The notes under the pieces were generated by a model. That model saw nothing but the letters and a program-made list of their open reading frames with translations, was not told the DNA's origin and did not search any database. Below are positions 1 to 24,070 of a stretch of DNA of 24,549 nt, one piece after another (positions within the stretch are counted from its first letter, which is position 1; each line of letters opens with the position of its first letter). Origin of the DNA: a virus; the IMG/VR virus record IMGVR_UViG_3300035034_000830, positions 1 to 24,549 of that record. The stretch is one strand, 5' to 3'. A program made the translations under genes and the position numbers.

Positions 1-3000
1 TAAGAGCTAGTCTCTGAGTATCTTCATCAAGGATACCAAATAATTCTTTGTACATACGTTTATCAATACTTTCTACAGTTTCTACCTTCGTACCTGTTTC
101 AGTTTCAGTAGAAGCTGCTAGTTCTTCAGTTGCTTTTATAGAATCATCAATCTCCTTGTCGCCAAATAATTTAGCTATGGTAGTACCTGCAGATTTCTCT
201 AACGGTATAACTGATTGAGTTAACTCTTTACCTTTAGACTCTAAAACTGCTAATTCTTTATTGATATTGGCAAGTACATTATTTAGTTTTTTTAAGTTAA
301 TAAATGTGAAACCAATTTTAGATAGTGCAGCTGCTTCTGCTGTGCCAATAGTTTCTTCGGTAGCATTATAACTTTTTAAGGCTGCTTCAAATTTCTCTTT
401 ACGCGCTAATTTAGCGTTTTTAAGTACAGCCATTTGTTCAAAAATAGTGCTGCTAATAAATCGTAAAGCAGTTTCTTTTTTCGATTGGTTGTCATTATTA
501 ACAGCAGCAGCAACTATATTTTTAGCAGCATCTATATATTCTTGTACACCCACAAAGTTTTCGTTTCCGTTAAGGAAAGAATCAAATGCTTCTTTGGTAG
601 CAACCTGTAATGTTTCGCCTAATTTTTTACGTTCTACGGCATTATGTTTAAGCTCTAGTACCCTATTAGCCAATATTCTTGCTAATTCTGTGCTTCCAGT
701 AGCTTCAGCAATTTCACCAAGGATTTGTAACTTAACTTTGTAATCTTTATCCCCGCGATTGATGGCTGCACCAGGACTAGAACCAAATGATTTTATCACT
801 CTATTCAATACGTCTGCTGCTATCTTTATTGGTTTGCCTTCTCTTTTTTGAGATCGGTAAGCGGTAAACATTTCATTAATAGCTACAGCATCTTGTTCAA
901 AAGTAAATTCTTCAAACTTCCTTATCACCTCTGTTACGGCTCGCCCTTTTGCAAGAATATCGGTGTAAATAGCTAATTCTTCTTTAGTGAAATCTTCTTT
1001 AGCTTTATCACCCAGTTCAGATATAACTCTTTCTTGTAATTTCTCTCTTACGAAGTGTAAATCATTAATTACTGCTTCCATTTTCTCAACACGACCTTCT
1101 TCCTTTTTAGTCTTCGCTATATTATCTAAAGTTTTATCCGCATCTTTAGCAAATCTCTCAGTATGTTCCATTGCCTCATTCTGAATAACTTCAGGGGATA
1201 AGTTAAATGCACTTACATTATCTACTCTAGGATCCGTTATGTTGCTATAGAACGTAGGAACGCCTGTGACCTTATCTTTAACAACTGATGCAGTTTCACC
1301 AATAAAACCTAAACCCTTCCCTGTAGTACGTGCAATGTCTCCAGTAAGAGGAATTGCTTGTCCACCTGCAGTAAGTCCTCCACCAACTAAAGCGCCTAAT
1401 GCTACACCTAAAAATATTTCGCTATTTCTGTCTCTGTCACGTTCTCGACCCAAAATATAATTAGATAGGTTTACTTCAGCATCTGTTTGGATGCCTTCCT
1501 GTAATCCCTCTTTAACGCCTGAATCAATTACTTTACCTACCCGTTTGCCTCCTGAATCACCAATAACTTTAGCAGTTTTACTTAATGAACTTGGTATGGA
1601 TTCACGTGCAAACTTAATAAGTCTATTTGTAATCCCTTTACCTACTTGTTCGTTACTTGGGTTATTTTTTAGTATTCCTGCAGTTTTTCCTATTCCTATT
1701 GTTGTAAGCGCTTCAATACCTGCAGCTGCAGTAGAATAAGCCAAAGCAAAATTACCTTCTTCAGCTGTCCAAATGTTCCCCGTCTTTTTAATATAATCAG
1801 CTAATGCTTGGTTATGAATATCTAAACCTTGTCCGACAGACTTAGACAAGATAGCAGTACTTTGTGTGATATTACCTGCAGTGTTAAACGCATCTTCAAA
1901 ACCTTTTAAGTGCGCCTCACGTGCAGCTCTCTTACTTTGTAGTTCGTCTAGTTGTTTTTGTATATCGCTATTCTTTATATCAAGTCTAGCTTTTCTGCTT
2001 ACATCACCTGAAAGGTTTCCATCTGCAATATCTTTTTTAGCTTTTGCCTTAATAGCAGCACGTTCAGTAGTAACTGCTTTATCTAGGGACGCTTTCATAG
2101 CAAGGAAATCTTTTTTCCCTAGTTGTCTCATTGCTAAGTTACCGCCAACACCAAATAACTTAAACGGTACCCCAGCAAATAGAGGTATACCTTCTTCTGC
2201 AATTAGAAGTGCTGCTCCTCGTTTGTGAGAGCCTACTGCACCTGCCCAACCCGAAGCGTACCTAACCATTAGGTTTGCCATATCTTTAGCAGCATCGGCA
2301 TCTCTGCCTTCAGCAACAGCTAAATCAAAGGAGGTTTGTAGCTCTTTTTCGTTGTTATAAACCTCAAGCATTGCATTAGATAAGTTGGTTTGGTCTTCCT
2401 GCCTACTAAAAGAATTTATATAGTCTTGAGTTTCTTTTTTGTTTCTAGCTAAGTTAACACTTAAATTTTTAATATCCTCTGCAATATCTATAGGAGATTT
2501 GTTTTGTAACGCAGAATACGCAACTACCAAACTAGCAGCAGGAGCCATCACTTCTGATGACTTAGCGCGTAGTAATTCGCCTACATTATCAAAATGTTTA
2601 CCTAGAGTATTAGTGACCCCTTCAACTATTTTTCCATCATCTGCTAATTTATCGACAAAATTAGCAGTATTTTTTACAGTGTTGGCTATAAAATCTAAAG
2701 CAGGTGTATCACCTCTAGCTGCTTTATCTTTTTCGAGCTCTGATAGAATAAAAGGCGCATCCATTGCTTGAAGACGTTTAATTGTTCCTTCTTCCTGTAC
2801 ACCTAACTTCTGCGCTTCCATATCATAAAGTTCTTGTCTCGCTGAAATCTCTTCAGGAGATGCATTATGTTTATCCGCATAACGCATATAAGTAGTTAAA
2901 CCCTTTCTAAGATTTTCTTGTTTGGTTTTTATATCGGTTAATTCCCTTAACCCTTCTGATGCAACTTCAGGAAGTGAAGCTGTTTTGGCAGCTACTTCTA

Positions 3001-3652
3001 ATGTAGGCAGTAATCTTCCTACGTACCCTTCAACTTGGTTAGCAAATGTCCTTCCTAACGCAAGCCAATCATTCTCCATGTACTTAGATCGGTCTATAAA
3101 CTCCCCTGAACTGAAAGTAGCACCTTCATCAACAGCTTCTCCACCTAAATCAGTTAGGGCTGCTTCGGCTGCTGCTTGTTCCCCTGGTTCCTGAAAACGA
3201 CTAGGTTGATTTTTCTTAGTGGTTAAAGCATCTATGTAAGCTTTAGACGTTTTCTCTCTTGTTTCTTGTTCTAGCCTTAACCTTTCAACTCGTTTTTGTG
3301 CAGCGTCATAAACTATTTTCATTCCTGTGTTACTAGAAAAATCTTCTTCAGATAATCCCATTATACTTGCAGAATCTTTCTCGGAATTTAAAATAGCTAA
3401 CTGTGTAGTAGATACACCTGTAAGAACGGATTTCTGTTCTTGGGCTTTATCCTTTTCTACTACTTTATTAGGAAGGGAGGCTGCTTTTACTTCTTTAGGG
3501 GTAATTGCCAATGCTAACTGACTATCCACAATCCCTGCATAATCAATAGGGGATTGTGTGGGTAAGTTAGGCTGAGCAATGGCTTTTTTTACTTCTGAAG
3601 GATTAGCTGTGGTAGTCGGAATAGGGGATAACGAATTGGGAACTACTGCCAT
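1..3652 (-). CDS. Giant virion protein, N-terminal 1,217 codons (presumed N4 gp50-like virion RNA polymerase), truncated by window edge
   Basis: An open frame runs from an ATG at 3652-3650 to the window edge without a stop (checked codon by codon over the distal 1 kb), beginning MAVVPNSLSPIPTTTANPSE. It is mostly helical and charged, with alternating Lys/Glu-rich and Ala-rich stretches. Around residues 750-775 there is a Gly-rich hydrophobic segment, FLGVALGALVGGGLTAGG, preceded by EGLQEGIQ; such segments occur in large ejected virion proteins. In N4, five genes separate the capsid gene from gp50, the roughly 3,500-residue virion RNA polymerase packaged in the head and injected with the DNA; here also exactly five do. 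N4 polymerase catalytic motifs lie after about residue 1000, so they would be mostly outside this window. I see no polymerase motif here: the name rests on position and size. It could instead be another large internal ejection protein. Confidence 0.6.
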   Translation of the reverse strand, partial: MAVVPNSLSPIPTTTANPSEVKKAIAQPNLPTQSPIDYAGIVDSQLALAITPKEVKAASLPNKVVEKDKAQEQKSVLTGVSTTQLAILNSEKDSASIMGLSEEDFSSNTGMKIVYDAAQKRVERLRLEQETREKTSKAYIDALTTKKNQPSRFQEPGEQAAAEAALTDLGGEAVDEGATFSSGEFIDRSKYMENDWLALGRTFANQVEGYVGRLLPTLEVAAKTASLPEVASEGLRELTDIKTKQENLRKGLTTYMRYADKHNASPEEISARQELYDMEAQKLGVQEEGTIKRLQAMDAPFILSELEKDKAARGDTPALDFIANTVKNTANFVDKLADDGKIVEGVTNTLGKHFDNVGELLRAKSSEVMAPAASLVVAYSALQNKSPIDIAEDIKNLSVNLARNKKETQDYINSFSRQEDQTNLSNAMLEVYNNEKELQTSFDLAVAEGRDADAAKDMANLMVRYASGWAGAVGSHKRGAALLIAEEGIPLFAGVPFKLFGVGGNLAMRQLGKKDFLAMKASLDKAVTTERAAIKAKAKKDIADGNLSGDVSRKARLDIKNSDIQKQLDELQSKRAAREAHLKGFEDAFNTAGNITQSTAILSKSVGQGLDIHNQALADYIKKTGNIWTAEEGNFALAYSTAAAGIEALTTIGIGKTAGILKNNPSNEQVGKGITNRLIKFARESIPSSLSKTAKVIGDSGGKRVGKVIDSGVKEGLQEGIQTDAEVNLSNYILGRERDRDRNSEIFLGVALGALVGGGLTAGGQAIPLTGDIARTTGKGLGFIGETASVVKDKVTGVPTFYSNITDPRVDNVSAFNLSPEVIQNEAMEHTERFAKDADKTLDNIAKTKKEEGRVEKMEAVINDLHFVREKLQERVISELGDKAKEDFTKEELAIYTDILAKGRAVTEVIRKFEEFTFEQDAVAINEMFTAYRSQKREGKPIKIAADVLNRVIKSFGSSPGAAINRGDKDYKVKLQILGEIAEATGSTELARILANRVLELKHNAVERKKLGETLQVATKEAFDSFLNGNENFVGVQEYIDAAKNIVAAAVNNDNQSKKETALRFISSTIFEQMAVLKNAKLARKEKFEAALKSYNATEETIGTAEAAALSKIGFTFINLKKLNNVLANINKELAVLESKGKELTQSVIPLEKSAGTTIAKLFGDKEIDDSIKATEELAASTETETGTKVETVESIDKRMYKELFGILDEDTQRLAL

Positions 3653-21522: not shown

Positions 21523-21573
21523 AGGATTCTTAAGATCCCCGCAGCGGAGCTGCTAGGGGATCTTAAGAATCCT
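21523..21573. repeat. Large inverted repeat with a GGA-loop core hairpin
   Basis: Arms AGGATTCTTAAGATCCCC (21523-21540) and its exact complement at 21556-21573 are 18 of 18 matched. Inside lies GCAGC-GGA-GCTGC (21541-21553), a five-pair stem with a three-base loop, plus an unpaired TA (21554-21555). Each arm is itself nearly palindromic around CTTAAG. It can form a 23-pair hairpin or cruciform in otherwise AT-rich DNA between late and early genes. Possible roles are bidirectional terminator, protein or polymerase recognition hairpin, or terminus-related site. Confidence 0.85.
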
Positions 21574-21579
21574 TAATAA

Positions 21580-22131: not shown

Positions 22132-22150
22132 GTCTGTACTATGTACAGAC
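22132..22150. repeat. Perfect 8-bp hairpin with three-base loop
   Basis: GTCTGTAC-TAT-GTACAGAC, followed by AACACA and a C7 run, in the spacer before the 84-residue gene and 22 bases before the first conserved leader. No T-run follows, so it is not a terminator. A short stem with a three-base loop is the form of N4 virion-polymerase promoters, but the loop bases (TAT, or ATA on the other strand) do not match those. Confidence 0.6.
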
Positions 22151-22172: not shown

Positions 22173-22226
22173 TCGCTAAACGCTCAGTTTGAATGAGGAT
22201 TTCCCTCACTAAACTTTATCGAAGGA
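22173..22226 (+). promoter_or_regulatory. Conserved structured leader, copy 1
   Basis: Block TCGCTAAACGCTCAGTTTGA then ATG (22173-22195), hairpin TGAGG-ATTTC-CCTCA (22194-22208), then CACTAAACTTTA (22207-22218) and ribosome site GAAGGA (22221-22226) before the ATG at 22235. It shares both flanking blocks with copy 2 and the first block with copy 3, while the stem sequence differs. Confidence 0.75.
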
Positions 22227-22234
22227 ATTAAATC

Positions 22235-22489
22235 ATGACTAAAGCAACAACACCTCCAGTAACTAGAAACCGTGTAACGGAAAGCTTCTCTAATACTCTG
22301 GATGCAGCACTATCTCTGACTAAGTCAGGTAGTCGAGCATTCAAAGTATTACCAGAAGTAGTGGATACTGCAACCAACACCGTAGTGTTAGGGTTAGCTG
22401 TATCTAACGTAGAACTAGCCAAGGCTGCTAAGGATATGTCTCCTGAAGCATCTGATGAGTACGAAGCAATCAAGCTTCGACTCAACTAG
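22235..22489 (+). CDS. Early-region hypothetical protein (84 aa)
   Basis: Begins MTKATTPPVTRNRVTESFSN; the ribosome site GAAGGA is eight bases before the ATG. It is small, Ala/Thr/Val-rich, with probable helices at about 14-45 and 58-83 (LAVSNVELAKAAKDMSPEAS). There is no signal peptide and no long membrane helix, although VVLGLAVSNV is mildly hydrophobic. It is the only gene of its unit: leader copy 1 stands before it and a hairpin follows seven bases after the stop. An antisense frame covering the same bases is a shadow. I recognise no family; N4-like phages carry many such small early proteins. Confidence 0.75.
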   Translation: MTKATTPPVTRNRVTESFSNTLDAALSLTKSGSRAFKVLPEVVDTATNTVVLGLAVSNVELAKAAKDMSPEASDEYEAIKLRLN

Positions 22490-22495
22490 AGTACC

Positions 22496-22519
22496 GAGAA
22501 CCCTGAACCTAGGGTTCTC
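22496..22519 (+). terminator. Nine-pair hairpin after the 84-aa gene, no T-run
   Basis: GAGAACCCT-GAACCT-AGGGTTCTC lies seven bases past the stop codon. The stem is perfect, but what follows is AACCCTCAAC, not a T-run. It may be an atypical terminator for a phage polymerase, or an RNA-stabilising 3' hairpin. Confidence 0.5.
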
Positions 22520-22840
22520 AACCCTCAACTACACACACAACACAGGTGAAGATGGAATCTTAAAGGAATAAGAGGACTCTTATGTATGTAAGCACACACT
22601 ATCAATACAGAGTAAGGTAGTACTGTCTAAGTACTGTCTAAGTAATATATTATGTATCAGGTACTATTATTGTACTGTATTGCACCATACTACGATAGTC
22701 TACCTATATACTATCCACACTTTGTTAAAGTATTACAGTCATCTCTATCATCACTACTATTACTAGACAAACCCTTTGCATCCACATATTAACCTATATA
22801 TTGCCTATAAGTTATATTGTCTCTTTTGTGTTGAGCTATT
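22520..22840. other. Gene-poor spacer with tandem GTACTGTCTAA and scattered GTACT words
   Basis: No convincing gene in about 320 bases. GTACTGTCTAA occurs twice in tandem (22620-22641), followed by further GTACT words at about 22661 and 22672. The region is AT-rich and ends in TTGTCTCTTTTGTGTTGAGC just before leader copy 2; a related TTGTCTC...TTTTGTGT string precedes copy 3 (23428-23445). Likely a transcription control region; no clear sigma-70 promoter is seen. Confidence 0.45.
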
Positions 22841-22902
22841 TCGCTAATCGCTCAGGTTGAATGCAGAATAATCTGCACTAAACTTTACTTATCTATTGGA
22901 GA
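22841..22902 (+). promoter_or_regulatory. Conserved structured leader, copy 2
   Basis: Block TCGCTAATCGCTCAGGTTGA then ATG (22841-22863), hairpin TGCAGA-ATAA-TCTGCA (22862-22877), CACTAAACTTTA (22876-22887) and ribosome site GGAGA (22898-22902) before the ATG at 22909. TGAGC at 22832-22836 could also pair with GCTCA at 22850-22854, closing a second stem over the conserved CGCTAA. Confidence 0.78.
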
Positions 22903-22908
22903 TATACC

Positions 22909-23283
22909 ATGTCAAAAGTTAAAGCAAAAGCAAAAAGAAACAGTGATTCTGAAGACTTTCCTATCGGTTACCTAAATCTTTACCGTAAAGCGGTAGATGA
23001 AGATGGTGAGTTAGTGAAAGGTGCTAAGTTAAATTGTACTTTCCCATTGGGTGATCAACGTGGACAGAACAAAGGCTTCGATAGTTTCGTTGAGTTAGCG
23101 CAAGAGCGTTGGACTAAACAGGAAACTGACGGTGTTCCAGAATCTGAAAGAATGCTAACCAAAGTCTTAGTTCCAGTGACATTCATCGCTGAAGTCTGGA
23201 TACCTGAAATGAAAGGTATCTCTGCTCCGTCTGATAGCATTGAAGAGACTGTTGATGACTTGAGAGCTCAAGTTATCGGTTAG
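22909..23283 (+). CDS. Early-region hypothetical protein (124 aa)
   Basis: Begins MSKVKAKAKRNSDSEDFPIG with a very basic first ten residues, then a compact mixed alpha/beta sequence (YLNLYRKAVDEDGELVKGAK, then LNCTFPLGDQRGQNKGFDSF and VLVPVTFIAEVWIP) and an acidic helical end (SIEETVDDLRAQVIG). There is a good GGAGA ribosome site. It is a single-gene unit with leader copy 2 before it and a strong terminator 17 bases after. The basic head followed by acidic body might suit a nucleic-acid or polymerase-binding regulator, but this is only composition. No family is recognised. Confidence 0.78.
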   Translation: MSKVKAKAKRNSDSEDFPIGYLNLYRKAVDEDGELVKGAKLNCTFPLGDQRGQNKGFDSFVELAQERWTKQETDGVPESERMLTKVLVPVTFIAEVWIPEMKGISAPSDSIEETVDDLRAQVIG

Positions 23284-23300
23284 TATCTGTTTGTTTAATT

Positions 23301-23338
23301 AAACCTTAAGTTCGTTCATTCGAGCTTAGGGTTTTTTT
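23301..23338 (+). terminator. Strong rho-independent terminator
   Basis: AAACCTTAAGTTCG and CGAGCTTAGGGTTT pair over 14 positions (two G-T) around the loop TTCATT, followed by seven T. It ends the 124-residue gene transcript. Confidence 0.92.
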
Positions 23339-23343
23339 ATTAG

Positions 23344-23403
23344 TGAACCAATAGGTTCATGTACCTTTTAAACTAAGATGCATTGACAGGCTCTCTACAG
23401 AGC
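23344..23403. repeat. Two small hairpins between terminator and leader copy 3
   Basis: TGAACC-AATA-GGTTCA (23344-23359) and GCTCT-CTAC-AGAGC (23390-23403), with TTGACA at 23383-23388 between them but no -10 at proper spacing. Neither hairpin has a T-run. They may be polymerase- or protein-recognition hairpins or chance structures. Confidence 0.4.
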
Positions 23404-23456
23404 TTGGCTGCAGTATTTGTAGTCCTTTGTCTCTGGTCTTTTGTGTCGCGTTCTCT

Positions 23457-23534
23457 TCGCTAAACGCTCAGGTTGTATGCGTTAGGGGCAATGTAAGATT
23501 CATTGCTGATTAATGCATCAATATAACCTGGGAG
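23457..23534 (+). promoter_or_regulatory. Conserved structured leader, copy 3 (enlarged hairpin)
   Basis: Block TCGCTAAACGCTCAGGTTGT then ATG (23457-23479). The outer stem TGCGTTA (23478-23484) pairs with TAATGCA (23511-23517), with one G-T pair. An inner stem GCAATG-TAAGATT-CATTGC (23488-23506) is added. The 3' block is degenerate (TCAATATAAC), followed by GGGAG (23530-23534) before the ATG at 23541. Confidence 0.72.
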
Positions 23535-23540
23535 TAATCT

Positions 23541-23780
23541 ATGAATATCATCAATTCTTATCAATACGAATCACAATCAATTGCGTTTAAACAAATGATT
23601 AATACTTACAAAGAAGTATTACGATTAGCTGCTTATGGGCTAATTGATAAAGAGACTGCTACTGAAGCAGAACAAGCATTGAAGAATCTCTATGCAATTA
23701 GAGAGTCTGTCATGTGCAGAAACCTGCAAGTATTTCTTGCAAATAAAATGCCTCAAATAATAACGAGGGTAACTCAATGA
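23541..23780 (+). CDS. Early-region hypothetical protein (79 aa)
   Basis: Begins MNIINSYQYESQSIAFKQMI. It is nearly all helical (YKEVLRLAAYGLIDKETATE then AEQALKNLYAIRESVM) and ends in a basic QIITRVTQ. Ribosome site GGGAG lies six bases before the ATG. It is the first gene of a unit of at least three, under leader copy 3; the stop overlaps the next start (ATGA). No family is recognised. Confidence 0.72.
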   Translation: MNIINSYQYESQSIAFKQMINTYKEVLRLAAYGLIDKETATEAEQALKNLYAIRESVMCRNLQVFLANKMPQIITRVTQ

Positions 23781-24070
23781 TCCACTATTTACCTAAAGAC
23801 TCACATATCCTGCAACTTGATGATCAGGAGGAAGTCACTATTACTATTGGTGACCGTTATCTTGCTAAAGTCAGAATATATCAATTAATGACCGTTAAAG
23901 AGGCTATTGATTTATATAATCGAGAAAGTATGTCAACGGGATTATTTAGTAATCCTGATATGTACATCCTAGAGGCTTGGGCATTCAATGGCACACCATT
24001 ATTGGTGGAAACATTACATAACCGAGATAGTGACATCGTAGGTCTATGCAGCATTGTAAATAACTTTTAA
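23777..24070 (+). CDS. Early-region hypothetical protein (97 aa)
   Basis: Begins MIHYLPKDSHILQLDDQEEV. It has an N-terminal beta-rich part (EEVTITIGDRYLAKVRIYQL) then helix and a short strand region (ILEAWAFNGTPLLVETLHNR). The start codon overlaps the previous stop by four bases, indicating translational coupling, and GAGGG lies upstream within the preceding gene. It is followed after 21 bases by the next gene. No family or catalytic motif is recognised. Confidence 0.72.
   Translation: MIHYLPKDSHILQLDDQEEVTITIGDRYLAKVRIYQLMTVKEAIDLYNRESMSTGLFSNPDMYILEAWAFNGTPLLVETLHNRDSDIVGLCSIVNNF

Follow-up and report, generated by a model that had tools for sequence, protein, structure and literature searches.

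The virion RNA polymerase (vRNAP) of phage N4 is the textbook example of a polymerase that recognizes a single-strand hairpin extruded by supercoiling. Relatives that keep the core of its promoters but have lost the stem would show what the vRNAP needs and how such recognition evolves. Here, we describe a candidate case in a viral DNA stretch of 24,549 nucleotides (nt) (IMG/VR record IMGVR_UViG_3300035034_000830, positions 1 to 24,549), referred to as the window, in which three copies of a short block each precede a hairpin and an early gene. The left end of the N4 genome carries three vRNAP promoters conserved from -17 to +1, at which the polymerase recognizes a purine at -11, G at -10, G at -8 and C at +1 of the template strand (PMC4496689). 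In sequence, the hairpins of these promoters (P1 to P3) read GTTGC[TTC]GCAAC, AAGAAGC[TCC]GCTTCTT and AAGCTGC[TCC]GCAGCTT, and directly after them, at the mapped start, stands a second hairpin (GGACA/TGTCC, TTGGATG/CATCCAA and TTGGT/ACCAA). The available portions of two reports (PMC3715699, PMC6027278) give predicted hairpin promoters for LUZ7, LIT1/PEV2 and the Pectobacterium phages CB1, CB3 and CB4; as in the window, each phage has three early sites at analogous positions, but their stems of 4 to 5 base pairs (bp) and 3-nt loops are unlike the window, and a leader hairpin is not mentioned in those portions.

A repeated block in the register of the N4 early promoters

The 23-nt block TCGCTAAWCGCTCAGKTTGWATG is found at positions 22173 to 22195, 22841 to 22863 and 23457 to 23479, each time on the plus strand. 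A preliminary description, made from the sequence alone, had reported these three copies; they proved exact, and no fourth copy with up to three mismatches occurs in the window, where shuffled sequences predict none. The near-identical contig L007 also holds only three, with none in the next 5 kb. Every copy directly precedes a hairpin, followed by a ribosome site and a gene. The copies stand at the start of the early region, and copy 3 lies ahead of the gene for RNA polymerase II (RNAPII), which follows at once in the window but after 14 genes in N4.

Aligned by its GC core, the block, CGC[TAAAC]GCTCAGTTTG, shares the register of the N4 promoters with G22191 as +1. Template bases were read with G22191, G22859 and G23475 as +1; -8G, -9C, -10G and +1C are all present, as in N4 P1 to P3, where a variable second hairpin likewise follows the core directly. 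The stems differ: N4 has 5 to 7 bp and a 3-nt GNA template loop, whereas the block offers only two G-C pairs enclosing a loop of 5 nt, with GCTCA as an invariant, noncomplementary 3′ arm, unlike that of N4. Since the window comes from a schitovirus with a vRNAP gene and copy 3 precedes RNAPII, we consider it probable that the block is a vRNAP early promoter (approximately -18 to +1) and that the stem-loop directly after it opens the early mRNA. Phage family, position and register support the parallel with the N4 early promoters that the preliminary description had drawn. The block would then be a variant of known N4-type early promoters, the unusual part being the reduced promoter stem itself.

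Beyond the window phage, the exact motif is rare. Exact and relaxed searches of IMG/VR returned only the near-identical contig plus three unrelated ones that have no leader hairpin; the further copies in relatives that the preliminary description had proposed to look for did not appear there. A search of one genome per prokaryotic species gave 16 matches, all due to chance, and a nucleotide search of phage records gave nothing. Two candidate features of the block were rejected. Its ATG, taken as a start codon, opens a 6-codon frame in copy 2 and a different frame without that stop in copy 1, and an alternative upstream hairpin at copy 2 (TGAGC/GCTCA) is not shared by copy 1.

Phage family and vRNAP gene

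The window phage belongs to the Schitoviridae (N4-like phages). Its structural proteins, among them portal, capsid and terminase, match schitovirus families; these three are of the N4 type and stand in N4 order, and many N4-like phages have a portal about 40% identical to that of the window phage. A giant vRNAP is represented by its N-terminal 1,217 residues. The late genes are read leftward as far as about 21441, and the early genes are read rightward from 22235 on. Since late and early regions sit at opposite genome ends in N4, the record reads across the joined ends of the phage genome.

Database searches with the leftmost open reading frame (ORF; 2 to 3652) gave no meaningful match. It occupies the place of N4 gp50, the vRNAP, and the next six genes follow the order and approximate sizes of gp51 to gp56. 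Against this ORF, a profile built from 13 vRNAPs scored 24.2 bits (best of 200 shuffles, 6.2), and hhalign with the same profile gave 82.6%, compared to at most 1.3% for the controls, which consisted of shuffled sequences and neighboring proteins. Comparing the N4 promoter-contact residues over the 13 vRNAPs, we found that the recognition elements cannot be aligned, even where the phages have clear N4-type hairpins.

Hairpins downstream of the block

The three hairpins stand at the same offset from the block, open with TG and close with CA. Their stems differ yet all pair, as the preliminary description had stated; the third includes one G·T wobble and encloses 26 nt, within which lies another helix (GCAATG/CATTGC). 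Also as stated there, CACTAAACTTTA follows copies 1 and 2 and only those. A TG in the early region opens a stem this good in about 3% of cases by the criterion for copies 1 and 2, or 5% by that for copy 3, with G·T allowed. Multiplied, these rates put the chance of three stems at one fixed offset at about 1 in 10^4 to 10^5, which makes a coincidence unlikely. Folded as RNA, the copy 1 stem appears in the centroid but not in the minimum-energy structure (z = -0.28). "Covarying" is a fair description of the stems, but it carries no phylogenetic test: they are sequence-unrelated paralogues of one phage and, with a nearly identical contig as the sole other source, offer no cross-species covariation. 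A role as terminators was rejected, as no T run follows any of the three, and real terminators stand elsewhere.

To place these hairpins in the family, we searched 35 schitovirus early regions for promoter-like hairpins, defined by a stem of 5 bp or longer, a T[ACT]C loop and a ribosome site further downstream, which yielded 72 sites. A leader stem of at least 5 bp followed 27 of the 72, compared to 10.5 ± 3.2 in dinucleotide shuffles (maximum of 19 in 100), and a stem of at least 6 bp followed 14 (3.4 ± 2.0 in shuffles; maximum of 9). Across the family, leader hairpins show a strong preference for TGG at their start, and their spacing from the GC core varies. A leader hairpin thus follows N4-type promoters above chance and constitutes a separate feature of early phage mRNAs; we found no published description of it in a literature check that left the original N4 promoter papers outside its scope. 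Because the TG...CA hairpins occupy the same place as the second hairpins of the N4 family, they are best read as mRNA leaders and are probably not N4 promoter hairpins. Given the variable spacing, transcription could alternatively start at the hairpin's own G (22195).

Other schitovirus lineages have ordinary promoter stems with TNC loops, including a TAC class in Fuhrmanvirinae and Pontosvirinae. The repeated ACTACGT hairpins before early genes of VBP47, pYD6-A and 1.150.O (L009, L010 and L011) represent this N4-type class with loop TAC and are often followed by a leader hairpin.

Relatives with reduced stems in promoter-like blocks

RNAPII or terminase as a single query found only the near-identical contig, and an RNAPII alignment was too divergent for scanning; relatives were gathered by scanning with a terminase alignment. 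A motif-free search for repeated blocks then revealed two phages whose blocks have no paired stem. The blocks of Vibrio phage D270 read TTGC[TTAC]GCTTG and TTGC[TTTC]GCTTG, and that of an uncultured phage (L040; IMGVR_UViG_3300004154_000014) reads CGC[TGC]GCTCA, with four intergenic copies. As in the window, a core GC[T..C]GC is followed by a nonpairing 3′ arm (GCTTG or GCTCA), a leader hairpin and a gene. The loops, of 4 nt in D270 and 3 nt in L040, are unlike the 5 nt of the window. The D270 leaders open with TGG and close with CCA; those of L040 are clear in two copies and only partial, by eye, in the other two. The terminases of both are only about 41 to 47% identical to that of the window phage. 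Mini-hairpins of DNA held by two G-C pairs, for example d(GCGAAGC), are described as extraordinarily stable in work cited in PMC10527192. The L040 template core GCGCAGC and the D270 core GCGAAAGC resemble this series.

Proposed mode of action

The vRNAP would be injected and would start at the blocks immediately upon infection. In N4, the template strand extrudes a hairpin of 5 to 7 bp with a 3-nt loop, which the vRNAP grips; in the window, the core GC-(T...C)-GC is kept, with a loop of 5 nt and arms that stay unpaired beyond the two G-C pairs. Recognition by the polymerase probably depends on the sequence of the fixed arm GCTCAGKTTG, perhaps aided by a weak mini-hairpin. The leader stem may protect or stabilize the 5′ end of the early mRNA or help the RNA to leave the template; it would be free to change its sequence because only pairing would matter. 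On single-stranded templates, N4 vRNAP is known to have difficulty displacing its transcript (PMC4496689).

From these comparisons we suggest, tentatively and with some doubt, that certain schitovirus lineages, including that of the window, have early promoters that do not need an extruded DNA hairpin, the vRNAP reading a linear or mini-hairpin sequence. If hairpin-independent promoters and a common 5′ mRNA hairpin both held true, the best-studied feature of N4 transcription would not be universal in its own family.

Several observations weigh against reading the block as a vRNAP promoter with a downstream leader. The stem is required in N4 promoters. When tested for, such a stem was absent from the block, which does not fold into a canonical hairpin and whose two G-C pairs and 5-nt loop reach -0.7 kcal/mol, compared to -3.7 to -6.3 kcal/mol in N4; the block lacks the combination of GC-rich core, inverted repeats, 5- to 7-bp stem and 3-nt template-strand loop that characterizes N4-type promoters. 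Template -11 is a purine (A) in copy 2 only, copies 1 and 3 both having T; this position is uncertain owing to the longer loop. The catalytic domain of the vRNAP falls outside the window. By the same test as above, most N4-type sites (45 of 72) lack a leader stem that reaches 5 bp. Finally, the L040 terminase is 70% identical to that of DEV, which has ordinary hairpins, and 47% identical to that of the window phage, so that the likeness of L040 to the window may be convergent.

Alternative readings of the block and hairpin

The preliminary description had offered a hairpin promoter and an RNA leader as alternatives. Both elements are suggested here, but in series, with the block as the putative promoter and the hairpin as the leader of its transcript. 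That the whole element is instead a transcribed regulatory leader RNA, controlling translation or attenuation from a promoter further upstream, appears unlikely. Block and hairpin are indeed common to three 5′ untranslated regions, and copy 2 weakly matches the ribosomal S15 leader (E = 0.0036, with a score short of the gathering threshold), which points the same way. However, no conserved sequence was found upstream of the block across the three copies, σ70 promoters are not enriched there, and the block fits the N4 promoter register. No Rfam leader or riboregulator family scored above its gathering threshold, the best being the S15 leader (25.9 versus 39.5 bits). The S15 match covers 22862 to 22936 and is probably due to chance.

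In another improbable reading, the TG...CA hairpin would serve as the promoter hairpin of the vRNAP, and the block before it would add a further recognition element. The vRNAP does require a hairpin (PMC4496689), and copies 1 and 2 supply perfect stems of 5 to 6 bp. The variable hairpins, however, have no conserved loop: ATTTC, ATAA and the structured 26-nt interior share nothing, whereas throughout the family the N4-type promoter hairpins retain C(TNC)G. They are also placed where N4 transcripts begin, and N4 has a similar hairpin there besides its promoter hairpin.

Least probable is a double-stranded promoter for the host RNA polymerase with a factor, or for the phage RNAPII: a directional, nonpalindromic block that measures about 20 nt and has no strong hairpin does resemble a T7-type promoter, but the promoters used by N4 RNAPII are short, A+T-rich elements (-7 to +2) distributed across the left half of the genome (PMC4496689), while the block has only three copies, each ahead of the RNAPII gene, with no further one over the following 5 kb.

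Predicted transcription units and neighboring structures

Coordinates are collected in Table 1.

Table 1. Positions of the putative promoter blocks, predicted leader hairpins and associated genes in the window
Feature	Position	Strand	Basis
Putative promoter block, copy 1 (-18 to +1 in N4 numbering, assuming a start at G22191)	22173..22191	+	Three-copy repeat; register versus N4 P1 to P3
Putative promoter block, copy 2	22841..22859	+	Three-copy repeat
Putative promoter block, copy 3	23457..23475	+	Three-copy repeat
Predicted leader hairpin 1, TGAGG-ATTTC-CCTCA	22194..22208	+	Folding; background stem rate
Predicted leader hairpin 2, TGCAGA-ATAA-TCTGCA	22862..22877	+	Folding; background stem rate
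Predicted leader hairpin 3, TGCGTTA...TAATGCA with inner helix	23478..23517	+	Folding; background stem rate
CACTAAACTTTA after hairpin 1, unpaired spacer before ribosome site	22207..22218	+	
CACTAAACTTTA after hairpin 2	22876..22887	+	
First gene of unit 1, 84 amino acids (aa), no known family	22235..22489	+	ORF list; searches
Gene of unit 2, 124 aa, unmatched among phage records	22909..23283	+	ORF list; search
Intrinsic terminator closing unit 2	23301..23334	+	
First two genes of unit 3, 79 and 97 aa (ORFs start at 23541)	23541..24070	+	
RNAPII, start (single chain, 578 aa in near-identical contig L004)	24092..24547	+	
vRNAP gene (N4 gp50 counterpart), N-terminal 1,217 residues, cut by window end	2..3652	-	Gene order; profile match with controls

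The RNAPII encoded after copy 3 is T7-like and joins the gp15 part with DX2GR and the gp16 catalytic part in one chain (L004:1673-3409). A two-subunit RNAPII has been reported in nearly all vRNAP-bearing phages (PMC4496689). Within unit 3, contig L004 lacks (near its position 1568) a stretch of roughly 200 bases of the small early gene at 23777 to 24070; therefore, this gene may be dispensable.

Two further structures lie upstream of the early genes. A perfect 8-bp stem with a 3-nt loop (GTCTGTAC-TAT-GTACAGAC) occupies 22132 to 22150, about 22 nt upstream of copy 1, and has no counterpart before copies 2 and 3. A long palindrome at 21525 to 21576 has no T run on either side; its minus-strand tip, GCAGC[TCC]GCTGC, has the canonical form of an N4 promoter hairpin and faces the terminase genes.
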